DNA of 44,990 nt from Henriciella sp. (lineage in GTDB: Bacteria; Pseudomonadota; Alphaproteobacteria; Caulobacterales; Hyphomonadaceae). A model generated the notes under the pieces. It had not been told where the DNA came from. It did not search any database and saw only the letters and a program-made list of their open reading frames with translations. The position numbers and the translations under genes are program-made. The DNA is taken from positions 1 through 44,990 of the forward strand of contig JABSQA010000009.1 in assembly GCA_013213825.1 (NCBI GenBank). The letters are read 5' to 3'. Below, in pieces: positions 1,072-20,504 of the stretch; position 1 is the first letter of the stretch, and each line of letters opens with the position of its first letter.

Positions 1072-2565
1072 TCAGACCGTGAGCGTGCGGCCAAGCGCGG
1101 ACTTCCAGCCCGCTAATAGAGCTCGCCGATCTGACTCCGACATGCTGGGCTCAAAGCGTCTGCCTGGCGCGGAGCGTGCAGCCCATTCAGCCTCGCTGAC
1201 CCAACCCAGCTGCATGCCCGCGAGCGCGGCTGCACCCAGCGCGGTCATTTCCATAAAGTCCGGTCGCTCCACCGGACGTTCGCAAATGTCTGCAACGAAT
1301 TGCATCAACCAGTCATTGGCCGCCATACCGCCATCCACGCGCAACAGGCCCACATCCGCACCATCCGCGGCGAACGCGTCGAGCAAATCACGCGTTTGAT
1401 AGGCCGCGGCCTCTAAGCCTGCGCGAACGATATGCGCCGCGCTAGCAGCGCGGGTCAGGCCCGAAATCGTCCCGCGCGCATTGGCATCCCAGTGTGGCGC
1501 GCCAAGCCCGGTAAACGCCGGTACCAGATAGACGCCTCCATTCCCATCCAAGGCGGCCGCTTGCTCTTCGCTTGCGGCTGCATTTGCAATCAGCCCCAGA
1601 TCGTCGCGCAGCCATTGGATCACCGTACCTGCATTAAAGATCGCTCCCTCGAGCGCAAAAGCTGAGCTCCCGCCTTCAAGGCCGTAACCAAGCGTCCCCA
1701 ATAAGCGATTGGCCGATCGCGGCGTGTCTTTACCAGTATTGGCAACAAGAAAAGCCCCCGTGCCATAAGTGATTTTGGCCGTCCCAGGCTTCAGACATGC
1801 TTGCCCAACGAGCGCTGCTTGCTGATCGCCGATGGCGGACAAGATCGGGATAGGCCGTCCAAACAGGTCTGGGTCCGTCTCGCCATATTGAGCGCCGCTG
1901 GGCCGCACCTCCGGCAATAGGCTCGCAGGCACATCGAGAAGGCGCATCATCTCAGCCGACCAAGTGCGCTCTTCTGCGAGGCTGAGCGGATATAGCAATG
2001 TCCGAGAGGCGTTTGTAACGTCTGTAGCATGCACGCGCCCGCCCGTTAGGCACCAAATCAGATAAGAGTCGACGGTTCCAAAGGCCAAGTCCCCTGCTTC
2101 AGCTTTGGCCCGCGCACCATCCAGATGAGCCAAAAGCCAGGCTATCTTTGTCCCCGAGAAATATGGATCAACCAGCAGTCCGGTTGCCGCTTGCACCATT
2201 GACTCGTGCCCGCGTTCGATCAGCTGTTCGCACATGTCGGCGGTGCGACGGTCCTGCCAAACAATGGCCGGTGCGATCGGCTCGCCCGTCTGGCGATCCC
2301 AAACCAGCGTGGTCTCGCGTTGATTGGTGATGCCGATCCCTGCAATGCGATCAACCCCACCCGCGCTCTGAATGGCCTGTCGGCAGACTTGGACGGTCTT
2401 GCTCCAAATCTCCACGCCATCCTGCTCAACCCAGCCATCATTTGGATAGGTAAGCGCAACCTCCATTTGGGCTTGGGCGATGGGCTCGAACTGGCGATCA
2501 AAAATGATGGCACGCGTTGATGATGTGCCTTCATCAATGACTAGGATGAGATCTGCGTCTGCCAT
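1072..2565 (-). CDS. glpK: Glycerol kinase GlpK
   Basis: Glycerol kinase phosphorylates glycerol to sn-glycerol 3-phosphate with ATP in the cytoplasm. The 497-residue length is normal for the FGGY kinase family. The N-terminal phosphate-binding motif DEGTSSTRAIIFD is at residues 11-23, followed by the GWVEQDGVEIW, GITNQRETT and DPYFSGTKIAWLL segments seen in GlpK. The catalytic aspartate lies in AIGDQQAALVGQ in mid protein, and the C-terminal half has YGTGAFL and RVDGGMAAND. It is divergent from glpD across about 160 nt holding two GlpR-like operators. No glpF glycerol channel is nearby, which fits glycerol arising inside the cell from a glycoside. A sugar-kinase paralogue is the only alternative and is unlikely given the close GlpK-specific match. 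Confidence 0.96.
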   Translation of the reverse strand: MADADLILVIDEGTSSTRAIIFDRQFEPIAQAQMEVALTYPNDGWVEQDGVEIWSKTVQVCRQAIQSAGGVDRIAGIGITNQRETTLVWDRQTGEPIAPAIVWQDRRTADMCEQLIERGHESMVQAATGLLVDPYFSGTKIAWLLAHLDGARAKAEAGDLAFGTVDSYLIWCLTGGRVHATDVTNASRTLLYPLSLAEERTWSAEMMRLLDVPASLLPEVRPSGAQYGETDPDLFGRPIPILSAIGDQQAALVGQACLKPGTAKITYGTGAFLVANTGKDTPRSANRLLGTLGYGLEGGSSAFALEGAIFNAGTVIQWLRDDLGLIANAAASEEQAAALDGNGGVYLVPAFTGLGAPHWDANARGTISGLTRAASAAHIVRAGLEAAAYQTRDLLDAFAADGADVGLLRVDGGMAANDWLMQFVADICERPVERPDFMEMTALGAAALAGMQLGWVSEAEWAARSAPGRRFEPSMSESDRRALLAGWKSALGRTLTV

Positions 2566-2642
2566 TTTTCCTCCAAAACGATGCGGCTATGGCGCTGTAC
2601 CTCATTTATCCGACAGATGCTAAAAATTTGAACCCTGACTCT

Positions 2643-2683
2643 AATATTCGTTTTCGAAAGATATTTCAGCGTTTACGAACATT
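2643..2683. promoter_or_regulatory. Two tandem GlpR-like operators between glpK and glpD
   Basis: Two adjacent sites resemble the E. coli GlpR operator WATGTTCGWTAWCGAACATW (recalled from literature). The first, AATATTCGTTTTCGAAAGAT at 2643-2662, matches 15 of 20 positions with an exact TTCG-N4-CGAA core. The second, TTTCAGCGTTTACGAACATT at 2664-2683, matches 15 of 20 with a perfect right half. Their starts are 21 bp apart, two helical turns, so two repressor units could bind on one DNA face. They sit between the divergent glpK and glpD starts. The match counts were made by eye; binding is an inference supported by the GlpR-type repressor gene nearby. Confidence 0.65.
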
Positions 2684-2727
2684 CAAAATCAGGCTAAGTT
2701 ACAGTCCAAGAAATGAGGCTGGATCAT

Positions 2728-4260
2728 ATGTACGATATTCTCATCATCGGAGGCGGCATTAATGGCGCTGGCATTGCACGCGACGCAGCTGGCCGCGGCT
2801 TAAAAGTTCTATTGTGCGAAAAAGACGATCTTGCCTCACATACATCTTCGGCGAGCACCAAGCTCATTCATGGTGGGCTTCGGTATTTGGAGCATTATGA
2901 TTTCTCATTGGTTCGCAAAGCACTGATGGAACGAGAGGTTTTGTTGAGAGCAGCGCCGCACATCATCTGGCCACTGCGCTTTGTACTGCCTCACCATAAA
3001 GAGTTGCGACCCAGCTGGCTGATCCGTTTGGGGCTGTTTTTGTATGATCATTTAGGGGGACGAAAACTCCTCCCCGCAACCAAAACGCTTTCCCGACAAA
3101 ACAGCAATGTGTTCGCGCCGCTTCAGGACAAATTCAGCAAAGGCTTTGAGTATTCCGATTGCTGGGTCGAAGACGCAAGGCTGGTGGTCTTGAATGCGAT
3201 GGATGCGGCAGAGCGTGGCGCGACTGTTTTGACCCAAACGGAATGCACTCAACTCGATACGACGAATGGTACGTGGCGGGCCAGATTACGTCGCGCGGAC
3301 GGATCTGAAACCCAGATTGAAGCGAAAACCGTGATCAATGCCGCCGGCCCTTGGGTGGACCAAGTCGCGGCGAGATCGGGAATCAAAACAAATGCCCCTC
3401 AAGTTCGTTTGGTCAAAGGCAGTCACATTATCGTGCCAAAAATGTTCGATGACGAACGGTGTTTCATATTCCAAGCGGGGGATGGCCGAGTCATCTTCGC
3501 CATCCCTTATGAAGACGGTCGATTGACCCTTATCGGCACGACCGACCTCCCCTTCGATCAAGATTTGGATGCTGTGAAGGCCTCACAAGACGAGATTGAA
3601 TATCTTTGTGAGGTTTCAAACACCTATTTCAAAAAAAGCATAAAGCCGGATGATGTCGTCTCGACCTATTCAGGTGTGCGTCCATTGTTCGATGATCAAG
3701 CAGAGGACGCGTCGTCGGTCACGCGTGACTATGCCCTGAAACTTCAAAAAACCAATGATGCCCCAATATTGTCCGTCATTGGCGGCAAGATCACAACCTA
3801 TCGCAAGCTTGCAGAAGATGCGCTCAAACACTTGAGCGAAACCTTCCCAACAGCGCAGATGCGCTGGACGGAAACTGCGCCGCTTCCTGGCGGAGACATT
3901 GACGATGCCGACTTCACCGCATTCGCCTCAAAGTGCGCGGAACAATATCCTTGGTTAAAAAGCGAAATGCGCGATCGTCTTGCTCGAACCTATGGTACGC
4001 GTATCGGCATCGTCTTAAAGGACGCCAAACAGGCATCCGATCTCGGTCATGATTATGGGGGTGGATTGACCCAAAAAGAAGTCGACTACCTCATCGCAAA
4101 TGAGTTTGCCCGTACCGCGGATGATATTCTTTTTCGACGCACCAAGCTGGGCCTGCATTTAAGTTCAACTGAGCAAAACACTTTGAAATATTGGTTTTCC
4201 AACGCATCCATCGCGGACACAAAAGCGCCGGAAACACGGAGTGAGGGAACGCAATCATGA
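2728..4260 (+). CDS. glpD: Aerobic glycerol-3-phosphate dehydrogenase GlpD
   Basis: FAD-dependent, membrane-associated enzyme that oxidises glycerol 3-phosphate to dihydroxyacetone phosphate and passes electrons to quinone. The N-terminus YDILIIGGGINGAGIARDAA is the FAD Rossmann motif, followed by SSASTKLIHGGLRYLEHYDF, a GlpD signature. NAAGPWVDQV and the late IGGKITTYRKLAEDAL motif are also present, and the length of about 510 residues is typical. I chose the ATG at 2728 because GAGG lies 9 nt upstream. The in-frame ATG at 2713 adds five residues (MRLDH) and has no clear ribosome site. Its stop overlaps the start of the symporter gene (ATGA), so the two are probably translationally coupled. 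It takes the product of the divergent glpK. Confidence 0.96.
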   Translation: MYDILIIGGGINGAGIARDAAGRGLKVLLCEKDDLASHTSSASTKLIHGGLRYLEHYDFSLVRKALMEREVLLRAAPHIIWPLRFVLPHHKELRPSWLIRLGLFLYDHLGGRKLLPATKTLSRQNSNVFAPLQDKFSKGFEYSDCWVEDARLVVLNAMDAAERGATVLTQTECTQLDTTNGTWRARLRRADGSETQIEAKTVINAAGPWVDQVAARSGIKTNAPQVRLVKGSHIIVPKMFDDERCFIFQAGDGRVIFAIPYEDGRLTLIGTTDLPFDQDLDAVKASQDEIEYLCEVSNTYFKKSIKPDDVVSTYSGVRPLFDDQAEDASSVTRDYALKLQKTNDAPILSVIGGKITTYRKLAEDALKHLSETFPTAQMRWTETAPLPGGDIDDADFTAFASKCAEQYPWLKSEMRDRLARTYGTRIGIVLKDAKQASDLGHDYGGGLTQKEVDYLIANEFARTADDILFRRTKLGLHLSSTEQNTLKYWFSNASIADTKAPETRSEGTQS

Positions 4261-5816
4261 ACATGTTACAGGTCGGTATCTTCTTTTTCATCACAGCCGT
4301 GATTGGGTTCCTGACATATCTCAGCTGCCGCAATGCGCCCTCAGGTGATCGTGGCTCGGATCACGACTACTTCCTCGCAAATGGTGGTTTGAGTTGGTAT
4401 TTTGTTGCCGGATCGATCACGCTGACCAATCTATCGACGGACCAATTGGTCGGTATGAACGGCAATCAGATGCTGCTTCTCGCTTGGTGGGAATTGGCCG
4501 CCGTCGTCGGTCTGTTCATTCTCGCTTATGTCTTCATCCCGATTTATTATCGCAACAAATGCACGACCACGACGGAACTGCTTCAACGCAAGTATGACAA
4601 TAAGCATATTCGCGCATTGATTTCGGTTCTGTTTCTACTTGGCAATTTGTTCATCTTCCTTCCCGCCATTCTCTATGGCGGTTCGCTGTTTCTGAAATCG
4701 ACCACGGGCGCAGACTTTTCAGGCGTGCTTGGGGAGCGACTGTTCACGGGAACGCCCGTGGAAGTGGACTCGACCATTTTTGTCATGGCGATCACCTTTG
4801 CCATTGTTGGCGCGCTTTATGCCATTCTGGGTGGCTTGCGTGCGGTCGCGGTGTCGGACACGTATAGCGGCGTCCTCATTCTTTCGCTTGCCGTCTTGGT
4901 CGTGATCCTTGCGCTCAATGCCATCAATTGGGACTTTTCTGGTGTTCCCGCCGAACGGCTCGACATGTTTATCGGCAGCAAACTGGAAGATGGCAGCGAA
5001 ACGCCCATCCCCTGGCATACGCTTCTCACCGGAATGATCTTTATCCAAATTTTTTATTGGAGCACGAACCAAACCATCACACAGCGTGCAATGGCCTCTC
5101 CGACGGTTGAGGAAGCCCGCAAAGGCATCCTCGCGGCGGCAGGAATTCGTCTCCTGATTGTCCCTATCATCGCCGTCTTGCCTGGTGTTGTCGCTTACAA
5201 GCTCTACGGAGATGTCGGCGATGCCGCCTATGGAATGATCGTTGGCGATATCATGCCGCCCATCCTTTCCGGCGCTTTCGCTGCTGCGATCGCAGCGGCT
5301 GTGCTGACCACGTTTAACTCTATCCTCAACGCCTCGGCTGCGCTTTATGTCTGCGATATCCATGAGTCTTATATTGAGGAAGCGCGCGATGTGCCGAAGC
5401 TGAGCATGTTCGTCTCGATCGCGATGACGGTCCTGGCCATCCTTTTGGTGCCTGTCTTTGCCTCCCAAGAGAGTATCATCAACACGGTTCAGCAACTTTA
5501 CGGTCTGCTTTCAATGCCCATCTTATCCGCCTTCATTGTTGGGCTGGCCTTTAGAAATGTGAGCGCGTGGGCAGCGATCATAGGTGTCGTAACGGGTGTT
5601 CTCGTCTATGCCATCTTTAGCTTCAAACTCTACCGCCTGCTCGGTATTTCGCCGACGGAAGGTCTCGGTGCGACGCTCGCGAGCGTTCACTATATCCACT
5701 ATATGTTTGTCACCCTCGTGGTCAGCATTGGAACCGCGTTGGCATCGAACTTGGTGGTGTTTGGACGTCGCGCTGAGCTGACCATCGGTCAATCTTCGCC
5801 GGCGCCTGCCGCATAG
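4257..5816 (+). CDS. Sodium:solute symporter (SSS family, sugar/galactoside-type)
   Basis: A 519-residue polytopic membrane protein with about 14 hydrophobic segments, of the solute:sodium symporter (SLC5-like) family. Family marks are the early segment DYFLANGGLSWYFVAGSITLTN, the following STDQLVGMNGNQM (compare ISAEQFIGMSG in the Vibrio galactose symporter vSGLT, recalled from memory), the YAILGGLRAVAVSD loop, and YWSTNQTITQRAMA after the middle. The ATGA overlap with glpD and the flanking alpha-galactosidase, galT and galK genes suggest it brings in a galactose-containing solute with Na+, possibly intact galactosyl-glycerol. Sequence alone does not fix the substrate; free galactose, melibiose or another polyol glycoside are alternatives. 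Its stop is 12 nt from the convergent regulator gene. Confidence 0.85.
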   Translation: MNMLQVGIFFFITAVIGFLTYLSCRNAPSGDRGSDHDYFLANGGLSWYFVAGSITLTNLSTDQLVGMNGNQMLLLAWWELAAVVGLFILAYVFIPIYYRNKCTTTTELLQRKYDNKHIRALISVLFLLGNLFIFLPAILYGGSLFLKSTTGADFSGVLGERLFTGTPVEVDSTIFVMAITFAIVGALYAILGGLRAVAVSDTYSGVLILSLAVLVVILALNAINWDFSGVPAERLDMFIGSKLEDGSETPIPWHTLLTGMIFIQIFYWSTNQTITQRAMASPTVEEARKGILAAAGIRLLIVPIIAVLPGVVAYKLYGDVGDAAYGMIVGDIMPPILSGAFAAAIAAAVLTTFNSILNASAALYVCDIHESYIEEARDVPKLSMFVSIAMTVLAILLVPVFASQESIINTVQQLYGLLSMPILSAFIVGLAFRNVSAWAAIIGVVTGVLVYAIFSFKLYRLLGISPTEGLGATLASVHYIHYMFVTLVVSIGTALASNLVVFGRRAELTIGQSSPAPAA

Positions 5817-5828
5817 GAATTGATGAAA

Positions 5829-6614
5829 TCAACCGTCATCCGCGACATGCAGCTCCATATCTGAATCGCGGATGGCATCCATAAAGGCTTGGGGCGGCGG
5901 CACATCCGTGAAGAGGTGATCGATATCGCCATAATCGCCCAGCCGGATCATCGCACGGCGACCAAACTTTGCGTGATCGGCGACCAAAAATACGGTTCGA
6001 GAGTTTTGGATAATGGCTTGAGCGGAGCGAACCTCTTGATAGTCGAAGTCAAGCAAGGTGCCGTCCTCATCAATGCCGCTAATCCCGATCACACCAATAT
6101 CTAGACGAAACTGTTTCAAAAACTCAGTAGTCGCTTCACCGACAATTCCACCATCAGACTGACGCACAAAACCGCCTGCGATCATCACATCCGATCCATC
6201 GGTCTCACGCATCATGTTCGCGATATTGATATTGTTCGTGACAATGCGCAGATCTTTCCGCCCTACCAATTCAGCCGCCAAGGCTTCGGTCGTGGTCCCA
6301 ATATTGAGAAAGAGGGATGCCCCATCCGGAATGCGATCGACCACCATGCGGCCAATCTTGCGCTTCGCATCCATACCTTCTTGCAATCGGTCCTGGTAAG
6401 GCTGGTTATAGGCATTGCCGATCCGGCCGGCGCCGCCATGGAAGCGCTCAATCAGTTCAAGCTCACAAAGCGTATTAATGTCACGCCGAATGGTTTGTGG
6501 CGTGACACCGAATTGTTTGACCAATTGTTCGGTCGCCACATAGCCATGAGATCGGATCAATTCCAGGATCTGTTTTTGCCGATCTGGCAAATTGGAAACA
6601 TCCGTATCACTCAT
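5829..6614 (-). CDS. glpR: DeoR-family repressor, GlpR type
   Basis: Transcriptional regulator of 261 residues. The N-terminal winged helix includes LPDRQKQILELIRSHGYVA and the recognition-helix region FGVTPQTIRRDINTL (residues about 36-50), which is nearly identical to E. coli GlpR. The C-terminal sugar-phosphate sensor domain carries NIGTTTEALAAEL, IVTNNINIANMM, IAGGFVRQSDGGIVGEAT and GISGIDEDGTLLDFDYQEVR, again GlpR-like along the whole length. GlpR of E. coli is released from DNA by glycerol 3-phosphate. The gene lies 54 nt downstream of the alpha-galactosidase gene on the same strand, so both may share a transcript. GlpR-like operators occur upstream of glpK/glpD and of the galactosidase and galT. 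A general DeoR sugar regulator is possible, but the GlpR match is specific. Confidence 0.92.
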   Translation of the reverse strand: MSDTDVSNLPDRQKQILELIRSHGYVATEQLVKQFGVTPQTIRRDINTLCELELIERFHGGAGRIGNAYNQPYQDRLQEGMDAKRKIGRMVVDRIPDGASLFLNIGTTTEALAAELVGRKDLRIVTNNINIANMMRETDGSDVMIAGGFVRQSDGGIVGEATTEFLKQFRLDIGVIGISGIDEDGTLLDFDYQEVRSAQAIIQNSRTVFLVADHAKFGRRAMIRLGDYGDIDHLFTDVPPPQAFMDAIRDSDMELHVADDG

Positions 6615-6668
6615 TCCGATCGTCCTCTTTCGCGCCGATGATCACTGTCTGCGCATGCAAGTCGCATG

Positions 6669-8810
6669 TCAAACCGCCTCCAAATGGAAGATCAGGCATG
6701 TTTCGGGATGTAAGAGTGGGATCTGTAGCCCAAGTTTTGCCAATGCGTCGCCAGGTAAAACCGCGCCGTTTCCCCCTAAATCAAGCGCCTCAATGATCGA
6801 TGGCTTTGATACGGAACGTGCGGGCGACGGCCAGACAATTTTTGTGCGATAGGATTGGCTTGGATCAAGGCCAGGCAAATACATGCGACCCGGCAATGTC
6901 TGCGCATGACCGGTGAGATTACACCATGAGAACAAGGCTTCAGATTGGTCGCCCGCAACCACACCGACGGCGTTTACATGCTCCGGTGTGTCCAGCCGGT
7001 GAAACGCGCCACCATGGATCAAAGACCGATGCGTCTTATGCAACGCGAGACCCGCCTTCAAAACATCCAAACTCGCTGCGTCTTCTTCCAGCAAATTGAG
7101 CTCCATGCCCATATGGCCAAATAGAGCTGTCGCCACCCTCAAATTCATACTGAGGCGCCGCCCCGTTATATGACACTTGGCCGGCCCGACATGCGCGCCC
7201 ATCACCTGCAAGGGGAAGAAATATGATGCCCCGCTTTGGATGTGCTGACGATCCAGCGCGTCATTGCTGTCCGATGTCCAGATGCGATCGGTTCTGCGCA
7301 GAATTTCATAGTCGCACCGCGCACCGCCCGACGAACACGATTCAATCTCAAGATCTGGGTGTGCCGCCCGTAATCGATCAATCAGCGAATATAGCGCGAG
7401 CGTCTGCTTATGTATGGCGGGACGACCTTGGCTTCCGGGATGATGGACATCTCGGTTCATATCCCATTTGACGTAGCTAATCGCATGCGCGCTGAGCAGT
7501 TTGTGCACGTGATCAAACAGATAGTCACTGACTTCGGGTCGCGACAGATCAAGGACATATTGCTGGCGGAATGGCACTTGCTCAACGCCCTCTGCCTGCA
7601 GAATCCAATCAGGGTGTTGTCTAAACAGGTCACTGTCTGGATTGACCATTTCCGGTTCAAACCAAATCCCAAATTCCATGCCGAGCCCAGTCACATGATC
7701 GATCAGCGGGCCGAGCCCGTCAGGATAGACGTCTTTCGACACCCACCAATCCCCTAATCCAGCTTTGTCATTGCGACGGGCGCCGAACCAACCATCATCG
7801 AGGATGAACCGTTCCGCACCCACGTCTGCCGCTTTTTCCGCAAGCCGGAACAAAGTATCGTGGTCGTGATCGAAATAGACCGCCTCCCAAGTATTATAGT
7901 GAATGGGACGGGGCTTTCGCGCGATGCGTCCATCCATCAGCGTTTGGGTTAAATGCCGATGGAATTGTCGCGAGAGGGTGCTGTAACCGCTTTTGGAATA
8001 GCCTGCATACAGACACGGCGTACGATACGTGGCGCCCGGCGACAAAGATAACTCACCTGAAAAAAACAGCTCCCCCATCTGGACGAAGGCACGACCATCA
8101 CTCAACCGGTCGAGCCGGACACGATGATTACCGCTCCACCCGAGATGGAACGCAAAACAAGCCCCAGATTGCTCACTCGTCGTTTCGGCGCCGACGAGAA
8201 GTCCAGGGAAACTGTCATGACTTGTCCGCCCCTTTTTGTTTTCCCGTAGATACGTTCCCGTAAATGGTGCGATCGGTTGCAGCTGGAACTCATTGGCCCA
8301 ACGCCCGGTAAAACCAAACATTTGAGTGGCCCGCGGATCTATTGGCAAACACATCGCCGCGCAGGCGTCTACCGCAAGGTCCGTTTCGCCGATATTCTCA
8401 ATCTCGGTCTGACAGGTGAGTATTTCGCTCTCTGGATCCAAACTGATTGAATGCGTGGCGCGAATTTTCGAGATCTTGTCTTCGCAGATAATATCCGCGG
8501 CGTTCGAGCTCGGCCGATGAACTTCAGTCACGCAAAACAAAGTTGCCCAATCGGCACCTTGCCGATGCGCCAAAAAGCCGGACCCGCTTTCCATCCCAAT
8601 TCCGGTTTCATTCAGCAGAGAGTCCTGAATATCAATATCGGCATTACCAGGCGCGTGCTGGCGCGTGGTCATCTCGGTCAAAATTTCTGGTGAGTCGAAG
8701 GCCAGTTTTTCGCCCCAATAGACCATCCGCGGACGCGCGCCGAGGGCACATGCCAGCACCAAACTGGTGCTGGCAGCATGAATCGTTACATAGCCAGGTT
8801 GATCGGTCAT
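6669..8810 (-). CDS. Alpha-galactosidase, GH36 family (cytoplasmic)
   Basis: Retaining alpha-galactosidase of about 713 residues, the usual size for bacterial GH36. It has an N-terminal beta-sandwich, then a TIM barrel starting near NTWEAVYFDHD and FILDDGWFGAR. The nucleophile aspartate is in YVKWDMNRDVHH (about residue 450 from this start) and the acid/base aspartate is in IWTSDSNDALDR (about 514). The substrate loop CSSGGARCDYEIL has Ala where most relatives have a third Gly. GAHVGPAKCHITGR and FGHMGMELNL are further family motifs. There is no signal peptide, so it acts on imported substrate. I prefer the ATG at 8810 (MTDQPGYV) with GGAG upstream; the ATG at 8849 lacks a ribosome site and overlaps an operator-like half site. 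Context with glpK/glpD suggests galactosyl-glycerol as substrate; melibiose or raffinose are alternatives. Confidence 0.93.
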   Translation of the reverse strand: MTDQPGYVTIHAASTSLVLACALGARPRMVYWGEKLAFDSPEILTEMTTRQHAPGNADIDIQDSLLNETGIGMESGSGFLAHRQGADWATLFCVTEVHRPSSNAADIICEDKISKIRATHSISLDPESEILTCQTEIENIGETDLAVDACAAMCLPIDPRATQMFGFTGRWANEFQLQPIAPFTGTYLRENKKGRTSHDSFPGLLVGAETTSEQSGACFAFHLGWSGNHRVRLDRLSDGRAFVQMGELFFSGELSLSPGATYRTPCLYAGYSKSGYSTLSRQFHRHLTQTLMDGRIARKPRPIHYNTWEAVYFDHDHDTLFRLAEKAADVGAERFILDDGWFGARRNDKAGLGDWWVSKDVYPDGLGPLIDHVTGLGMEFGIWFEPEMVNPDSDLFRQHPDWILQAEGVEQVPFRQQYVLDLSRPEVSDYLFDHVHKLLSAHAISYVKWDMNRDVHHPGSQGRPAIHKQTLALYSLIDRLRAAHPDLEIESCSSGGARCDYEILRRTDRIWTSDSNDALDRQHIQSGASYFFPLQVMGAHVGPAKCHITGRRLSMNLRVATALFGHMGMELNLLEEDAASLDVLKAGLALHKTHRSLIHGGAFHRLDTPEHVNAVGVVAGDQSEALFSWCNLTGHAQTLPGRMYLPGLDPSQSYRTKIVWPSPARSVSKPSIIEALDLGGNGAVLPGDALAKLGLQIPLLHPETCLIFHLEAV

Positions 8811-8885
8811 GGCGCGGGCGTCTCTCCATATCGAGTGTTCGTTTAGCATATTGCAGAAATCGGCAATGTTGGAAATAGATCACTT

Positions 8886-8905
8886 TATCCTCGTATACGA
8901 AAATA
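8886..8905. promoter_or_regulatory. GlpR-like operator between the alpha-galactosidase gene and galT
   Basis: TATCCTCGTATACGAAAATA matches the E. coli GlpR operator consensus (recalled) at 15 of 20 positions, with the core CGTATACG fully palindromic. It lies about 75 bp upstream of the chosen alpha-galactosidase start and 143 bp upstream of galT, in the divergent control region. A weaker half site, TGTTCGTTTA, is at 8836-8845. Counts were made by eye, and binding is inferred. Confidence 0.55.
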
Positions 8906-8978
8906 TCGGGTTCGTGAAAGCAGCGATACTAAGCGCTTTTTCGACCTATATCGTGAAATCGCATATGGATATTTTTGC

Positions 8979-8998
8979 CGTGATCGAATACGAACTTA
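8979..8998. promoter_or_regulatory. GlpR-like operator upstream of galT
   Basis: CGTGATCGAATACGAACTTA matches the GlpR consensus at 14 of 20 positions, with CG-N4-CGAAC in the core. It is 50 bp upstream of the galT ATG, a position where a bound repressor would block a promoter or its early clearance. The whole 8850-9047 stretch is AT-richer than its neighbours and has no coding signal of its own. Confidence 0.45.
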
Positions 8999-9047
8999 AA
9001 GAACGGGCTTTCCGACAGCAAGCTTGGCGATAGATGGACGAAATGCG

Positions 9048-10130
9048 ATGACTGACATGATGACCGAGCTTTCGCGACACGCCGCCGGGCGCCGCATTCA
9101 TCGTCGTCAGCATCGCAAGACCGACGGGCGCGATCTATTCTTATACGGATACGCCCCCCACACCCTCCCACTAATGGCGGGGGAAGACTTGCAAACTGTC
9201 ACCGGGTCCGAATTACGCTGGCATCCTCTGCGTGGCGAGTGGGCAGTTTATGCCGCCGGGCGACAGAACCGAACCTTCAAACCGAGCGCCGCCGCAAACC
9301 CCCTCGCGCCAAGCAAACCTGGTGCACCACTTACCGAAATCCCATTTGAAGATTTTGAATTGGCCGTGTTCAGCAACCGCTTTCCGAGCCTTTATCCCGA
9401 CGCGCCGGAACCAGGCGTGACGGATATCGAAGCCGTAGCTGCCAAGGGCGCATGCGAAGTCATTGTTTATTCTCCACAAGCGGATGGGTCGCTCGCCACG
9501 CTCACGCAAGATCGTCGCCGCCTCTTGGTCGAAGCGTGGATTGACCGCTACCAAGTGATGTTCGACGCGGGTAGCGCATTCGTATTACCCTTCGAAAACC
9601 GAGGAGATGCTGTGGGCGTGACTCTGCATCATCCGCACGGTCAGATTTATGGCTTCCCCATCGTTCCGAGCCCTCAGCAGCGGGCCGTTCAAGCTTTCGA
9701 AGATGGGTATGACTTGGCCAAAGAAGTTAAAGCGTGGGGCGACGCATACTGGATCAACAAAGCCGGAGGCTTGATCAGTTTCGCGCCGCGCTATGCCCGC
9801 TTCCCTTATGCGGGCTGGATTTGTGCCCGCGACCCCGTATCTGGGCCAGGGGCTTTTGACGAAACACAAGCCGACGGGTTTGCCCACCTGCTCGGCGATA
9901 CTGTTCGGCGTTATGATGCCTTTTTTGGATGCGAGACACCGTGCATGTTATCGTTGCACGCGGCGCCATACGGCCGTGATGGAAAGTTTCAATTCACCGC
10001 TCAATTCTATCCCCTGCTCCGCGCCCCAGATCGCGTAAAATATTTGGCTTCTGTCGAACAAGCCACGGGCGTGTTCACCGTTGACATCATGCCTCGCCAG
10101 GCGGCTGACCAATTGCGAGGCGCAATATGA
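9048..10130 (+). CDS. galT: Galactose-1-phosphate uridylyltransferase GalT
   Basis: Second enzyme of the Leloir pathway: it exchanges galactose 1-phosphate and UDP-glucose for UDP-galactose and glucose 1-phosphate. The active-site motif HHPHGQIYGFP holds the nucleophilic histidine, about residue 197 from this start. ELRWHPLRGEWAVYAAGRQNR and FENRGDAVGVTLHHPH are GalT signatures, and NRFPSLYPD is the conserved central strand. The cysteine pair that holds zinc in E. coli GalT is missing, as in many relatives. The frame is open back to a TTG at 9024; I chose the ATG at 9048 because it is the first ATG, although no strong ribosome site is visible. The stop overlaps the galK start (ATGA). It is divergent from the alpha-galactosidase gene. 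Confidence 0.94.
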   Translation: MTDMMTELSRHAAGRRIHRRQHRKTDGRDLFLYGYAPHTLPLMAGEDLQTVTGSELRWHPLRGEWAVYAAGRQNRTFKPSAAANPLAPSKPGAPLTEIPFEDFELAVFSNRFPSLYPDAPEPGVTDIEAVAAKGACEVIVYSPQADGSLATLTQDRRRLLVEAWIDRYQVMFDAGSAFVLPFENRGDAVGVTLHHPHGQIYGFPIVPSPQQRAVQAFEDGYDLAKEVKAWGDAYWINKAGGLISFAPRYARFPYAGWICARDPVSGPGAFDETQADGFAHLLGDTVRRYDAFFGCETPCMLSLHAAPYGRDGKFQFTAQFYPLLRAPDRVKYLASVEQATGVFTVDIMPRQAADQLRGAI

Positions 10131-11191
10131 CTTTGGAAGCTGAATTCAAAACTGCATTTGATTGCCCCCCATTGGCAATCATGTCAGCACCGGGTCGCGT
10201 CAACTTAATTGGCGAACACACCGACTATAATGGCGGCGCTGTTCTGCCGGCAGCATTAGAACGAAGAATCCAAGTTGCCATTGCCCGAAACGTTTCAGAC
10301 ACTGTGGTGATAAAATCCACCCGCTTCGATGATAAGATCGAGCGCCCCATTGGGGATCCCAAAAGAGGCGACTGGACAGATTATGCGATGGGGGCACTCA
10401 GCAAAGCTAGCGAACTTGGTTGGTTCGCAGGCGGGGCATTCCTTTATATTGAGAGTGACGTCCCAGACGGCGCTGGCGTCTCGTCTTCAGCCGCTCTGAT
10501 TACAGCCATTCTTCGCGCCGTCGCTAAAATCTCCAACATCACAACCTCCGCAGTCGATATTGCGAAACACGCCCGTTCTGTCGAGAATGACTATATTGGC
10601 ATGCCCTGCGGGATCATGGACCAGATGGCGGTCGGACTTGCCGATTATGGTCGCGCTCTCGCACTCGACACGTTGGATCTCAGCTTTGAAGTGGTCGATA
10701 TTCCAGAAGACTGGGTCTTTGCCGTCATCCATTCCGGTGTGCGCAGAGAACTTGCCGATGGCCGCTATAAGAAGCGATTCGAAGAGTGCCAGGCGGCGGC
10801 TGATGCGCTGCAAACGGCACATCTGTGCCGCCCAACGGAAGCGCAGAAAGTCGCGGTAAGTGAGTTGCCAGAAAATCTGCGCAAACGCGCGCAACACGTG
10901 ATCAGCGAACACGAGCGTACCGTTGCAGCCACCGTCGCTTTAAAAACTCAAGACGCGCACACTTTCGGGCGCCTGATGATCGAGAGCCACCGCTCATATT
11001 CTGAAGATTTTGAGGCTTCCACGCCAGTCATCGATGCCCTTGTGACAGACGCCATTGCCCAAGGGGCCTTAGGCGCACGCCTGACCGGCGGCGGATTTGG
11101 CGGGTGCATTGTCGTCCTCTTCCAAGCGCAGAATGCAGATGCCCAAATCCAGAGCCTGCTCGACAAGCACCCGAAGACGTGGCCCGTTTAA
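10127..11191 (+). CDS. galK: Galactokinase GalK
   Basis: GHMP-family kinase of 354 residues that phosphorylates alpha-D-galactose to galactose 1-phosphate with ATP. The galactokinase signature GRVNLIGEHTDYNGG is at residues 23-37, the ATP-binding loop PDGAGVSSSAAL at 113-124, the catalytic aspartate in PCGIMDQMAVG near residue 165, and the GHMP motif 3 LTGGGFGGCIVV near the C-terminus. It overlaps the galT stop by four bases, so the two enzymes are probably made in fixed ratio. With a retaining alpha-galactosidase upstream, the alpha anomer is released directly, the form galactokinase uses. No galE, galM or phosphoglucomutase gene is in the window, so UDP-galactose epimerisation must be encoded elsewhere. 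Confidence 0.96.
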   Translation: MTLEAEFKTAFDCPPLAIMSAPGRVNLIGEHTDYNGGAVLPAALERRIQVAIARNVSDTVVIKSTRFDDKIERPIGDPKRGDWTDYAMGALSKASELGWFAGGAFLYIESDVPDGAGVSSSAALITAILRAVAKISNITTSAVDIAKHARSVENDYIGMPCGIMDQMAVGLADYGRALALDTLDLSFEVVDIPEDWVFAVIHSGVRRELADGRYKKRFEECQAAADALQTAHLCRPTEAQKVAVSELPENLRKRAQHVISEHERTVAATVALKTQDAHTFGRLMIESHRSYSEDFEASTPVIDALVTDAIAQGALGARLTGGGFGGCIVVLFQAQNADAQIQSLLDKHPKTWPV

Positions 11192-11246: not shown

Positions 11247-12164
11247 ATGCGTAACACCTTCATTTCACTTCTGCTCGCCACCCTGACCAGCGCTTGTGCG
11301 TCGACGCAAGCGCAAACGCCCCCTCAATCAGATTCACCCGTTTGTACACTCGCAGAACAATCCACGGACGTTCTGAACCAATGGCGGGAGAATGGCTTTG
11401 AAGACCAATTGACCGATACCGCCGCCCGAGACTTTGCCAGCTGTTTGGGCGCCGCCTCGCCATTCCTGCGGGATCAAATAGGATATGAGGGCCTCACCGC
11501 GGCCTTGCGCTCCGGCAACGTTTCTGAGGCGACGCGGCGTGACTTGATCGCGGATCTGTCGGTGAATTTGGAGACCATAGACGAGGCCGGATTTCTTGCG
11601 CCATTCTCGGCGCTAGCCCTGTCTGAATTGGCGCGCACAGACCGCGTCGAAGCATTTCTATCTCCGGCAGAGCGCACAGCCCTGGCTCAAACCGCAGCCA
11701 ATTATCTCGCAGGCGTCTCCGACTTTCGCGCTTATTCCGACACGGAAGGTTGGCGCCATGGGGTCGCGCATGGCGCCGACATCGCCATGCAATTGGCGCT
11801 CAATCCGAACGTCGAAACAGCCGACCTGAGAACACTCAAAGGTGCGATCACATCACAAATTACGGCGCGCACAAGTCATGCTTTCTCAGCGGGAGAACCT
11901 GAACGATTGGCGCGCCCGATCTTCTTCATGGCGCCCCGCGAAGTGTTTACAGACGACGAGTGGGCAGATTGGTTTTCTGCGCTCGCAGATCCTGCCCCTA
12001 TGGCAGATTGGTCGGGCGCGTTTAAATCCGAAATCGATCTTGCGCGCCTGCACAATCTGAAAGCCTTTGCGCGCGTGATCTATATCAATGCGAGCTTGAG
12101 CGAGAATGAAGCGCTTATACCTTTGGCGACAGGATCGCTTGAGATGCTCAAGACGCTCCCTTAA
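11247..12164 (+). CDS. DUF2785-like lipoprotein
   Basis: A 305-residue protein of unknown function. The N-terminus MRNTFISLLLATLTSAC is a lipoprotein signal with cysteine 17 as the probable lipid site, followed by a low-complexity linker. The body is all-helical in appearance and carries DFRAYSDTEGWRHGVAHGADIAMQLA at residues about 161-185, which I recognise as the hallmark of DUF2785 (usual form RGY-x5-GW-x-HAVAHGAD). IGYEGLTAALR and FSALALSELARTDR also fit that family. It follows galK by 55 nt on the same strand, but no functional link is visible. Its stop codon shares the sequence TTAA with the stop of the convergent recJ gene. The family assignment is from memory of the motif, not a search. 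Confidence 0.75.
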   Translation: MRNTFISLLLATLTSACASTQAQTPPQSDSPVCTLAEQSTDVLNQWRENGFEDQLTDTAARDFASCLGAASPFLRDQIGYEGLTAALRSGNVSEATRRDLIADLSVNLETIDEAGFLAPFSALALSELARTDRVEAFLSPAERTALAQTAANYLAGVSDFRAYSDTEGWRHGVAHGADIAMQLALNPNVETADLRTLKGAITSQITARTSHAFSAGEPERLARPIFFMAPREVFTDDEWADWFSALADPAPMADWSGAFKSEIDLARLHNLKAFARVIYINASLSENEALIPLATGSLEMLKTLP

Positions 12165-18575: not shown

Positions 18576-20504
18576 ATGACCAAAGGTAGAAACTTTGATA
18601 ATTTTGGGGCGAGTACGCTCCCAAACAAGTTCGCGGACGTGAATTCTGAGTCATTGCAAGCGATGACGACGAATTTGGTCGCGGCTGTTCAAGAAGCGCA
18701 GAGCCTTCTGGTTGAGTCATTAAATGGCGCAAATATAGCGCCGCCCGCGCCAGGCCAGGCCGATCCATTTGGCGGCATTGAAGCACAAATGAAACTTGGC
18801 GCAGCCCTCGCCCGAAACCCCGAAAAGTCCAGTCACGCCATGATGACGCTTTTTCAAGGCTGGATGAACCTGTTCCAATCCATGGCCAGTGGAACCCCCT
18901 TGCCGCGCGACCGGCGGTTTGCGGATCCCGAATGGGAAGCCAATCCAGCATTCAATTTCATGCGCCGCGCTTGGATGCTCAATGCGGAATGGCTGCAAGG
19001 TCTGATCGACACGGTCGCAGACGATCTGGACGATGATGTCGAGCTGAAAGCCCGGTTCTATATGAGCCAATTTATCGATGCGATGTCGCCCACCAATATG
19101 ATGGCAACCAATCCGGCAGCCATCCGCGCGATGATCGAAACCAAGGGCGAAAGCGTTCTGGCCGGTCTGCGCAATGCCCGGGAAGACATGCAACGCGGCG
19201 AAGGCCGCCTCGCCATCTCACAAACAGACGAAGACGCTTATGAGATCGGGAAAAACGTCGCCACGGCCAAAGGCAACGTGATTTTCCGGAACAAGCTGAT
19301 TGAGATCATCCATTATAATCCAACCCGGAAGAAGATGCGCGAACGACCGATGCTCATCTTCCCGCCATGGATCAATAAATTCTACATTCTCGACTTGCAG
19401 CCCGAGAACTCAATGATCCGCTGGCTTTTATCAAAGCGTGTGAACACATTTGTGGTGTCTTGGCGGTCTGCAGATGATGAGACCAAAGACTATGATTGGG
19501 ACGATTATATCGAGCACGGTATTTTAGCCGCGGTCGACGCGGTCACCAAGGAGACCAAATCGAAGAAAATCAACACAGTTGGCTATTGTATCGGCGGCAC
19601 ACTGCTCAGCACCGCCTTGGCGCATATGGGCAAAATTGGCGACGAGCGGATTCAATCGGCCACTTATTTTGCTTCGCAATCCGATTTCGAACTCGCGGGC
19701 GAGCTGAAAATCTTCACCGGTGAAGATGGCTTACAACAAGTCGAAAAAGTCATTGAAGAGCAAGATGGGATCATGCCCGGCGAGATGATGGGCGAGACCT
19801 TTAATTGGCTGCGTCCGGCAGACTTGGTCTGGCGCTATGTCGTTGACAATTACATGATGGGCAAACAGCCCCGGCCGTTCGATTTGCTGTATTGGAATGC
19901 CGACCAGACCAATATTCCCGGACAGACGCACCGCCAGTATTTGACCCAGTTCTACAATATGAACCAGCTGTCGCGCGGCAAATTTAAAGTCTTCGGTGAG
20001 CCGGTCTCGATGGCGGATATCAAAATCCCAGTTTTCGTTCAGGCCAGCCGGTCTGACCATATCTGCCCGTGGCACTCTATCTATAAAGGCGCGCAAAATT
20101 TCGGCGGACCGACCCAGTTCACACTGGCCGGATCTGGACACATTGCGGGGGTTATCAATCACCCCGACGCGCAAAAGTATCAGCATTGGCACAATCAGGA
20201 CCTGCCGGACAATCCAGGCCGTTGGCTGTCCAGCGCTGAAGAGCGGCCTGGATCCTGGTGGCCGAGCTGGTGGGAATGGCTACGCCCGCTTTCTGGCGAC
20301 AAGGTCGATTCCGTAAAAGTGAAAGACCGCAAGCTCGGCGCGGCGCCGGGTCAGTATGCTGCGCTAAAGCTCAAAGACATTGCCGCTGGCGCAAAACCGG
20401 CTGGCCCGTATTCCGACGGCACAATGCCGACCCCCGGCAAGCCGATGGTGAAAAAGAAAAAGCCAAGCTATCGCCTACCGGCTGGCTGGCGCCCCCGCGA
20501 CTAG
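18576..20504 (+). CDS. phaC: Class I poly(3-hydroxyalkanoate) synthase PhaC
   Basis: Polymerises 3-hydroxyacyl-CoA into polyhydroxyalkanoate at the granule surface. The 642-residue length fits class I synthases. The lipase-like box GYCIGGT places the catalytic cysteine at residue 338. By position, Asp494 in QASRSDHICPWHS and His522 in GSGHIAGVINHP complete the triad. The N-terminal half contains the PhaC-specific stretch RRAWMLNAEWLQGLIDTV and later RPMLIFPPWINKFYILDL. It is encoded alone here (no phaA, phaB or phasin gene adjacent), divergent from a small lipoprotein gene. Its stop is separated by one base from the stop of the convergent YceI-like gene. Confidence 0.96.
   Translation: MTKGRNFDNFGASTLPNKFADVNSESLQAMTTNLVAAVQEAQSLLVESLNGANIAPPAPGQADPFGGIEAQMKLGAALARNPEKSSHAMMTLFQGWMNLFQSMASGTPLPRDRRFADPEWEANPAFNFMRRAWMLNAEWLQGLIDTVADDLDDDVELKARFYMSQFIDAMSPTNMMATNPAAIRAMIETKGESVLAGLRNAREDMQRGEGRLAISQTDEDAYEIGKNVATAKGNVIFRNKLIEIIHYNPTRKKMRERPMLIFPPWINKFYILDLQPENSMIRWLLSKRVNTFVVSWRSADDETKDYDWDDYIEHGILAAVDAVTKETKSKKINTVGYCIGGTLLSTALAHMGKIGDERIQSATYFASQSDFELAGELKIFTGEDGLQQVEKVIEEQDGIMPGEMMGETFNWLRPADLVWRYVVDNYMMGKQPRPFDLLYWNADQTNIPGQTHRQYLTQFYNMNQLSRGKFKVFGEPVSMADIKIPVFVQASRSDHICPWHSIYKGAQNFGGPTQFTLAGSGHIAGVINHPDAQKYQHWHNQDLPDNPGRWLSSAEERPGSWWPSWWEWLRPLSGDKVDSVKVKDRKLGAAPGQYAALKLKDIAAGAKPAGPYSDGTMPTPGKPMVKKKKPSYRLPAGWRPRD

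Follow-up and report, generated by a model that had tools for sequence, protein, structure and literature searches.

We identified a compact gene block in Henriciella sp., an alphaproteobacterium of the order Caulobacterales, in which genes for galactoside and glycerol catabolism lie side by side. The block occupies positions 1072-11191 of a 44,990-nucleotide stretch of contig JABSQA010000009.1 (hereafter the window) and contains glpK, glpD, a sodium:solute symporter (SSS), a GlpR-type repressor, a GH36 alpha-galactosidase, galT and galK. An earlier sequence-only reading had placed these seven genes next to each other, and all seven were recovered with no unrelated gene inside the block. We regard the block, with moderate confidence, as a single catabolic module that acts on a soluble alpha-galactosyl-glycerol and is controlled by GlpR. 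The module is real and recurrent, and its two halves most likely meet in a single galactosyl-glycerol substrate. All of its parts come from known families; their combination and the GlpR-type control were not described in the papers listed by our literature searches.

Judging from their coordinates, the genes form four transcription units that start from two divergent promoters. At the first promoter (2566-2712), glpK (glycerol kinase, 1072-2565, minus strand; TIGR01311, 633.8 bits, cut-off 590) lies opposite glpD (aerobic glycerol-3-phosphate dehydrogenase, 2713-4260, plus strand; NF009906, 758.6 bits against a cut-off of 352) and the SGLT-like SSS symporter, the proposed importer (4257-5816, plus strand; PF00474, SSF, E value 1e-32). 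At the second (8850-9023), the GH36 gene (6669-8849, minus strand), which encodes the N-terminal, catalytic and C-terminal GH36 Pfam domains, is followed on the same strand by the gene for the GlpR-type DeoR-family repressor (5829-6614; HTH_DeoR and DeoRC domains). Opposite these are galT (galactose-1-phosphate uridylyltransferase, 9024-10130, plus strand; PF01087, E value 1e-19) and galK (galactokinase, 10127-11191, plus strand; TIGR00131, 258 bits against a cut-off of 227). The best NCBIfam model for the repressor was GlpR, with 306 bits, below the equivalog cut-off of 331; GalT had a domain score above the cut-off, and the full-length GalT models scored below theirs.

Both divergent promoters contained GlpR-type sites, at 2644-2661 and 2665-2682 between glpK and glpD and at 8887-8904 and 8980-8997 between GH36 and galT. 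The underlying palindrome, TTCG-NNNN-CGAA, was first noticed by inspecting intergenic sequences in the window and its relatives, and the tested pattern was thus not chosen blind. Its exact form TCGWWTWCGAA occurred three times in the 45 kb, once in the glpK/glpD promoter (at 2648), twice in the GH36/galT promoter and nowhere else in the window, compared to 0.31 occurrences expected; none of 100 shuffled sequences reached three. The density of TCGNNNNCGA was 8.8 and 7.5 per kb in the two promoters versus 0.8 elsewhere in the window and mapped relatives (approximately 10-fold), and the gap between glpR and GH36 had no copy. A matrix trained solely on glpK/glpD sites (13 in all, taken from the window and six relatives) scored 20.2 (a training site) and 14.4 in the glpK/glpD promoter of the window and, outside its training set, 16.9 at 8887-8904 and 19.9 at 8980-8997. 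These four scores were the highest in the window, the next being 13.2, and in four relatives (L032, L033, L034 and L036) the top sites were likewise all within the two promoters. L035 differed in that the GH36/galT site (13.9) was outscored by one inside glpD (14.8); L037 had a high-scoring site just outside the promoter, probably as a result of the called galT start, and the site labels of L038 were unusable because of overlapping start calls. As an independent test, the matrix was applied to E. coli. Its best match in 11 kb was ATGTTCGATAACGAACAT, which lies upstream of glpD (24.8, compared to 13.5 for the second-best), and its best match in another 10 kb was upstream of glpF (13.9, compared to 11.9).

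We also scanned 18 hand-chosen distant loci with a site cut-off of 13 bits. Seven of the eight that contained glpR had sites at symporter/GH36, galT, glpR or TonB receptor promoters, and the eighth (L058) had no matrix site of at least 13 bits; the ten loci lacking glpR gave a single match, at an unrelated gene (L113). Given these sites at galactoside promoters, the galactoside genes appear to belong to a GlpR-type regulon, and both halves of the block apparently share one GlpR-type control. E. coli GlpR is reported to respond to glycerol-3-phosphate (PMC5493358, PMC7567609), and by analogy this compound may be the effector of the repressor described here. In addition, genes resembling tryptophan halogenase and SapC were found by the TonB receptor and GH36 genes of L205 and L210, with GlpR-type sites before the receptor gene, and one galE of the source genome had a GlpR-type site approximately 440 bases beyond it (L204:2915).

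The association of galactose and glycerol genes recurs outside the window. A search of 299 genomes of the order with the GH36 protein gave 65 matches at E ≤ 1e-50. Neighborhoods were mapped in 40 regions, in 80 loci retained from a scan of GTDB genomes that confirmed at least 595 relatives, and in 20 further regions; after removal of four duplicates and of loci lacking a 600-residue GH36 reading frame, 133 loci were kept, including the window. A locus was assigned to the glp class if it had, within 10 kb of GH36, a glpK or glpD with an identity of 45% or more to the gene of the window (L108 was assigned by hand, from the beginning of a glpD gene at a contig end). This class comprised 23 of the 41 loci whose GH36 was at least 45% identical to that of the window, versus 1 of 92 below this identity (L205). 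The 23 loci are related to each other, with nine from this genus and seven from one other genus (g10), in addition to L042, L043, L055, L058, L108, L109 and L113. On a quick maximum-likelihood GH36 tree of 52 loci, 39 of the 41 close loci formed one clade (Shimodaira-Hasegawa-like approximate likelihood ratio test, SH-aLRT, 99), and the glp assignment switched at least nine times. Gene orders also differed: glpK-SSS-GH36-galT-galK-glpR-glpD-GH42-galM (L042), SSS-GH42-AraC-GH36-glpD-glpK (L043), SSS-GH36-galT-galK-glpR-glpD-TonB receptor (L055), SSS-GH42-GH36-TonB receptor-glpR-glpD-glpK (L058), GH36/SSS-glpK (L049-L054) and glpK-SSS/GH36 (L109), a slash marking divergent genes. Linkage that is rebuilt repeatedly in new orders is usually a sign of shared function. 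Of the 23 genomes that belong to the close clade but not to this genus, eight had glpD, which in four of the eight was no more than 15 kb from GH36.

In some close clusters, galT and galK were replaced by genes of the De Ley-Doudoroff pathway, such as galactonate dehydratase in L043; neighbors in L107, L114, L115 and L116 were read by eye as aldolase, kinase, dehydrogenase, dehydratase or lactonase of this pathway. Their presence beside related GH36 genes points to galactose as a product, whatever its source. Other recurrent neighbors (histidine kinase, flagellar export genes, sulfotransferase, BCCT carrier and acyltransferase) were set aside, and a 600-residue neighbor of GH36 in the g10 clusters, first taken for a hydrolase, proved to be LepA.

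Within the genus, the gene set was conserved in the seven mapped relatives and the flanks varied, with three differences: a missing symporter in G269 (see below), an additional 254-residue reading frame between the symporter and glpD in G056, and in G150 a TonB-receptor-like gene of approximately 970 amino acids, also between the symporter and glpD, whose product may provide outer-membrane entry for the substrate. A single glpK (E ≤ 1e-60) was detected in 28 of 29 genus genomes. It was of the cluster type in ten carriers, and the other 18 had a distinct glpK (50-55% identical) with no adjoining glpD; in L072-L089, this distinct glpK of cluster-free members sits elsewhere, and no glpD was found in those genomes. 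Nine of the 29 genomes had glpD, namely, the eight GH36 carriers and G302, on whose contigs the cluster was likewise present. No glpD was detected in the 14 members examined and found to lack GH36. G301 had a cluster-type glpK beside putA and no glpD match in an assembly that is 87% complete. In the source genome (a draft assembly of 3.6 Mb and 276 contigs with 93.8% completeness), the only glpK (E ≤ 1e-60) and the only glpD found were those of the cluster. The block itself is flanked by putA (2-1057, truncated by the contig end) and, on the other side, by genes for a DUF2785 protein, recJ, glpX and hom. The DUF2785 gene (11247-12164) directly follows galK; its product has a lipoprotein-like N-terminus by eye, and it had no match in the maps of the seven relatives. 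A class I polyhydroxyalkanoate synthase is encoded further along the window (18576-20504).

In the proposed pathway, the SGLT-like symporter would import a galactosyl-glycerol intact and a cytoplasmic GH36 would take off the alpha-galactose, which would enter the Leloir pathway via GalK, GalT and a GalE encoded elsewhere; GalK, GalT and GalE were all found in the source genome. Glycerol would be phosphorylated by GlpK and the product oxidized by GlpD. Glycerol-3-phosphate derived from the substrate would release the repressor at both divergent promoters, and in this way the glycerol half would induce the galactoside half. The substrate could be digalactosylglycerol derived from digalactosyldiacylglycerol (DGDG), with an unlinked GH2 enzyme removing the beta-linked galactose, or floridoside or isofloridoside. 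A structure model of the GH36 protein (predicted local distance difference test, pLDDT, 86.6) had a template modeling (TM) score of 0.88 to solved GH36 enzymes. Asp463 and Asp527 were invariant in an alignment of 21 sequences and, judging from this alignment, are the probable retaining Asp pair. The true start is probably Met14 (around base 8810), where homologs begin, and the N-terminus, read by eye, suggests a cytoplasmic location. A search of the source genome for Melibiase_2 (PF16499) gave no match.

The closest solved structures to the symporter were the Vibrio sodium/galactose symporter vSGLT and human SGLTs. Five vSGLT residues, Q69, E88, N260, K294 and Q428, are listed as galactose-binding in PMC8037263. 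Among 57 symporters at least 50% identical to that of the window (itself included), three of these were identical to vSGLT in all sequences (Q69, E88 and Q428), whereas N260 was replaced by Gln and K294 by Arg throughout, both conservative changes. Such similarity would fit a system mainly for uptake of free galactose, in which a vSGLT-like galactose carrier operates and the GH36 meets little substrate. We consider this improbable, since 47 of the 53 genomes having both genes carried the symporter no more than 15 kb from GH36, and the two fixed replacements argue for an altered pocket. No GlpF-like facilitator was detected in the source genome, and the only MIP channel found there reads as AqpZ-type, based on an NPARS motif and the His characteristic of AqpZ; thus, there is no obvious facilitator for free glycerol.

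The identity of the galactosyl-glycerol was approached through the enzymes that accompany GH36. GH42 beta-galactosidase occurred in 54 of the 65 genomes with GH36 versus 7 of the 234 without it; these 299 genomes are mutually related, and a Fisher p-value for this contrast would therefore carry no meaning. In the close clade outside this genus, GH42 was present in 22 of 23 genomes (in 5 within 15 kb of GH36), and it was found in 32 of 34 genomes with a distant GH36 (in 21 near it). Of the 11 GH36 genomes lacking GH42, eight are the carriers from this genus and the other three are G152, G157 and G214; four of the 29 genus genomes had GH42, all four outside the set examined for GH36. Instead, ten of the 29 genus genomes, the eight carriers together with G301 and G302, had a LacZ-type GH2 unlinked to the cluster; no such gene was detected in the 14 members examined and found without GH36. 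This distribution makes the head group of DGDG, alpha-Gal-(1,6)-beta-Gal-glycerol, a plausible if tentative candidate, in which GH36 and then GH42 or GH2 would yield two galactose and one glycerol. Use of this head group would require an alpha- and a beta-galactosidase, a sugar symporter and galactose and glycerol genes, and the gene set of the relatives fits this requirement. Of the 54 genomes with both enzymes, 26 had GH42 no more than 15 kb from GH36, and SSS, GH42, GH36, glpD and glpK were all clustered in G165, G250 and G293. GH36 enzymes usually cleave alpha-1,6 bonds, and carriers include Candidatus Phycosocius, which lives with a green alga, and a Caulobacter. However, GH42 was not found in the source genome, the cluster contains no lipase, and alpha- and beta-galactosidases may coincide merely because both serve organisms that consume galactose. 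An alpha/beta hydrolase, a possible lipase with weak PAF-acetylhydrolase-like matches in L059, was observed between GH42 and the symporter in L059 and L060 and was not seen in the remaining mapped clusters.

The sequence-only reading had proposed alpha-galactosyl-glycerol, in the form of floridoside or isofloridoside from red algae or of a galactolipid headgroup. In floridoside and isofloridoside, the only bond to be split is the alpha bond to glycerol. This version, in which we have rather low confidence, agrees with the set of genes that share the operator, which includes alpha-galactosidase as well as the genes for galactose and glycerol but lacks a beta-galactosidase. Related GH36 proteins are also carried by Catenovulum agarivorans (49% identical) and Thalassotalea algicola (47%). 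Against it, a beta-galactosidase partner is nearly universal in the relatives, and one carrier lives on a freshwater green alga, where floridoside is not expected. This carrier, Candidatus Phycosocius bacilliformis, is described as an ectosymbiont of the green alga Botryococcus (PMC12700997), and its authors suggest galactose oligomers as its likely food, galactose being a main component of the algal matrix (PMC10008586); such oligomers are a possible third substrate source. A GH36 enzyme is reported to accept glycerol in reverse hydrolysis, producing isofloridoside, and alpha-galactosyl-glycerol is described as the chief photosynthetic product of red algae (both PMC8509150). On balance, a galactosyl-glycerol substrate is favored by the recurrent linkage, the co-distribution and the GlpR-type operators in both promoters, whereas the evidence does not single out floridoside, because a beta-galactosidase is the usual partner in relatives and points to digalactosylglycerol equally well or better. 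Floridoside thus stands as one of two good candidates; for the family as a whole, we lean slightly to digalactosylglycerol.

Several observations weigh against a single galactosyl-glycerol module. The sequence-only reading had stated that it would be refuted if homologous clusters regularly lacked the glycerol genes, and this was partly the case: 18 of the 41 close loci had no glp gene within 10 kb, although at least four of the 18 (L041, L044, L045 and L056) lie near contig ends or on contigs that are short. G195, whose GH36 is 61% identical to that of the window, had no glpD match at E ≤ 1e-60 genome-wide. G269 (L038) has the cluster complete except for the symporter, and none of that kind was found elsewhere in its genome. 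With one mismatch allowed, 13 operator sites were counted versus 6.6 expected, a weak excess reached by 4 of 100 shuffles; the matrix gave no notable match at E. coli glpT/glpA and, in three of the seven glpR loci with promoter sites (L042, L206 with 20.0 bits, and L211), extra matches at unrelated genic places. Related regulators also occur beside galT with no glp gene near (L206, L210 and L211). As for digalactosylglycerol, the GH2 gene of the source genome is unlinked and lacks a GlpR-type site upstream, as in eight of nine relatives (G026 had one loose match). The pattern within the genus, for glpD as for GH2, may reflect one event in one subclade. Finally, no glpK or glpD was found in the source genome apart from those of the cluster, so these genes may simply serve free glycerol.

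The last observation is also what would be expected if an alpha-galactoside/galactose operon and a glycerol operon with separate uses were neighbors and GlpR acted as a general carbon-status switch. E. coli GlpR is reported to govern operons beyond glycerol metabolism as well (PMC7567609), and some clusters with no glpK or glpD nearby had GlpR-type sites at their galT or TonB receptor genes. Nevertheless, chance neighborhood poorly explains a linkage that recurs in several lineages in differing orders, and we regard two separate uses as rather unlikely.

If digalactosylglycerol is indeed the substrate, the block would represent a dispersed, undescribed GlpR-controlled pathway, with SGLT-type uptake followed by GH36 and then GH42 or GH2, acting on head groups from phototroph membranes, whose main lipids are galactolipids. 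We offer this possibility tentatively. Such a pathway would span Caulobacterales-type, sphingomonad and marine gammaproteobacterial lineages, and glycerol would be both carbon source and inducer. Whether an alpha-galactosidase is switched on by glycerol-3-phosphate is directly testable in cultured strains. In the literature, no bacterial catabolic gene set for floridoside or digalactosylglycerol was present among the matches listed.

The block was compared to the closest known systems. With the E. coli glp regulon (GlpR, GlpF, GlpK and GlpD) it shares GlpK, GlpD, a GlpR-type repressor and the form of the operator, but no GlpF was found and the sites are also present at the alpha-galactosidase and galT genes. 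Melibiose/raffinose and Leloir operons similarly contain GH36, GalK and GalT; they are controlled by a galactoside activator or a GalR-type repressor, whereas the block has glycerol genes and a GlpR-type repressor. The symporters resemble vSGLT not only in Q69, E88 and Q428 but also in N64 (57 of 57) and Y263 (56 of 57, with one gap), and differ from it at the positions of N260 and K294. A related idea is the proposal by Egel, as cited in PMC8333865, that the lac operon serves galactosylglycerols derived from galactolipids. In both cases, the head group of a galactolipid would be the target of a galactosidase; the lac proposal concerns a beta-galactosidase only, without linked glycerol genes, and the gut, whereas the module proposed here would link alpha-galactosidase to glycerol genes and draw on algae.

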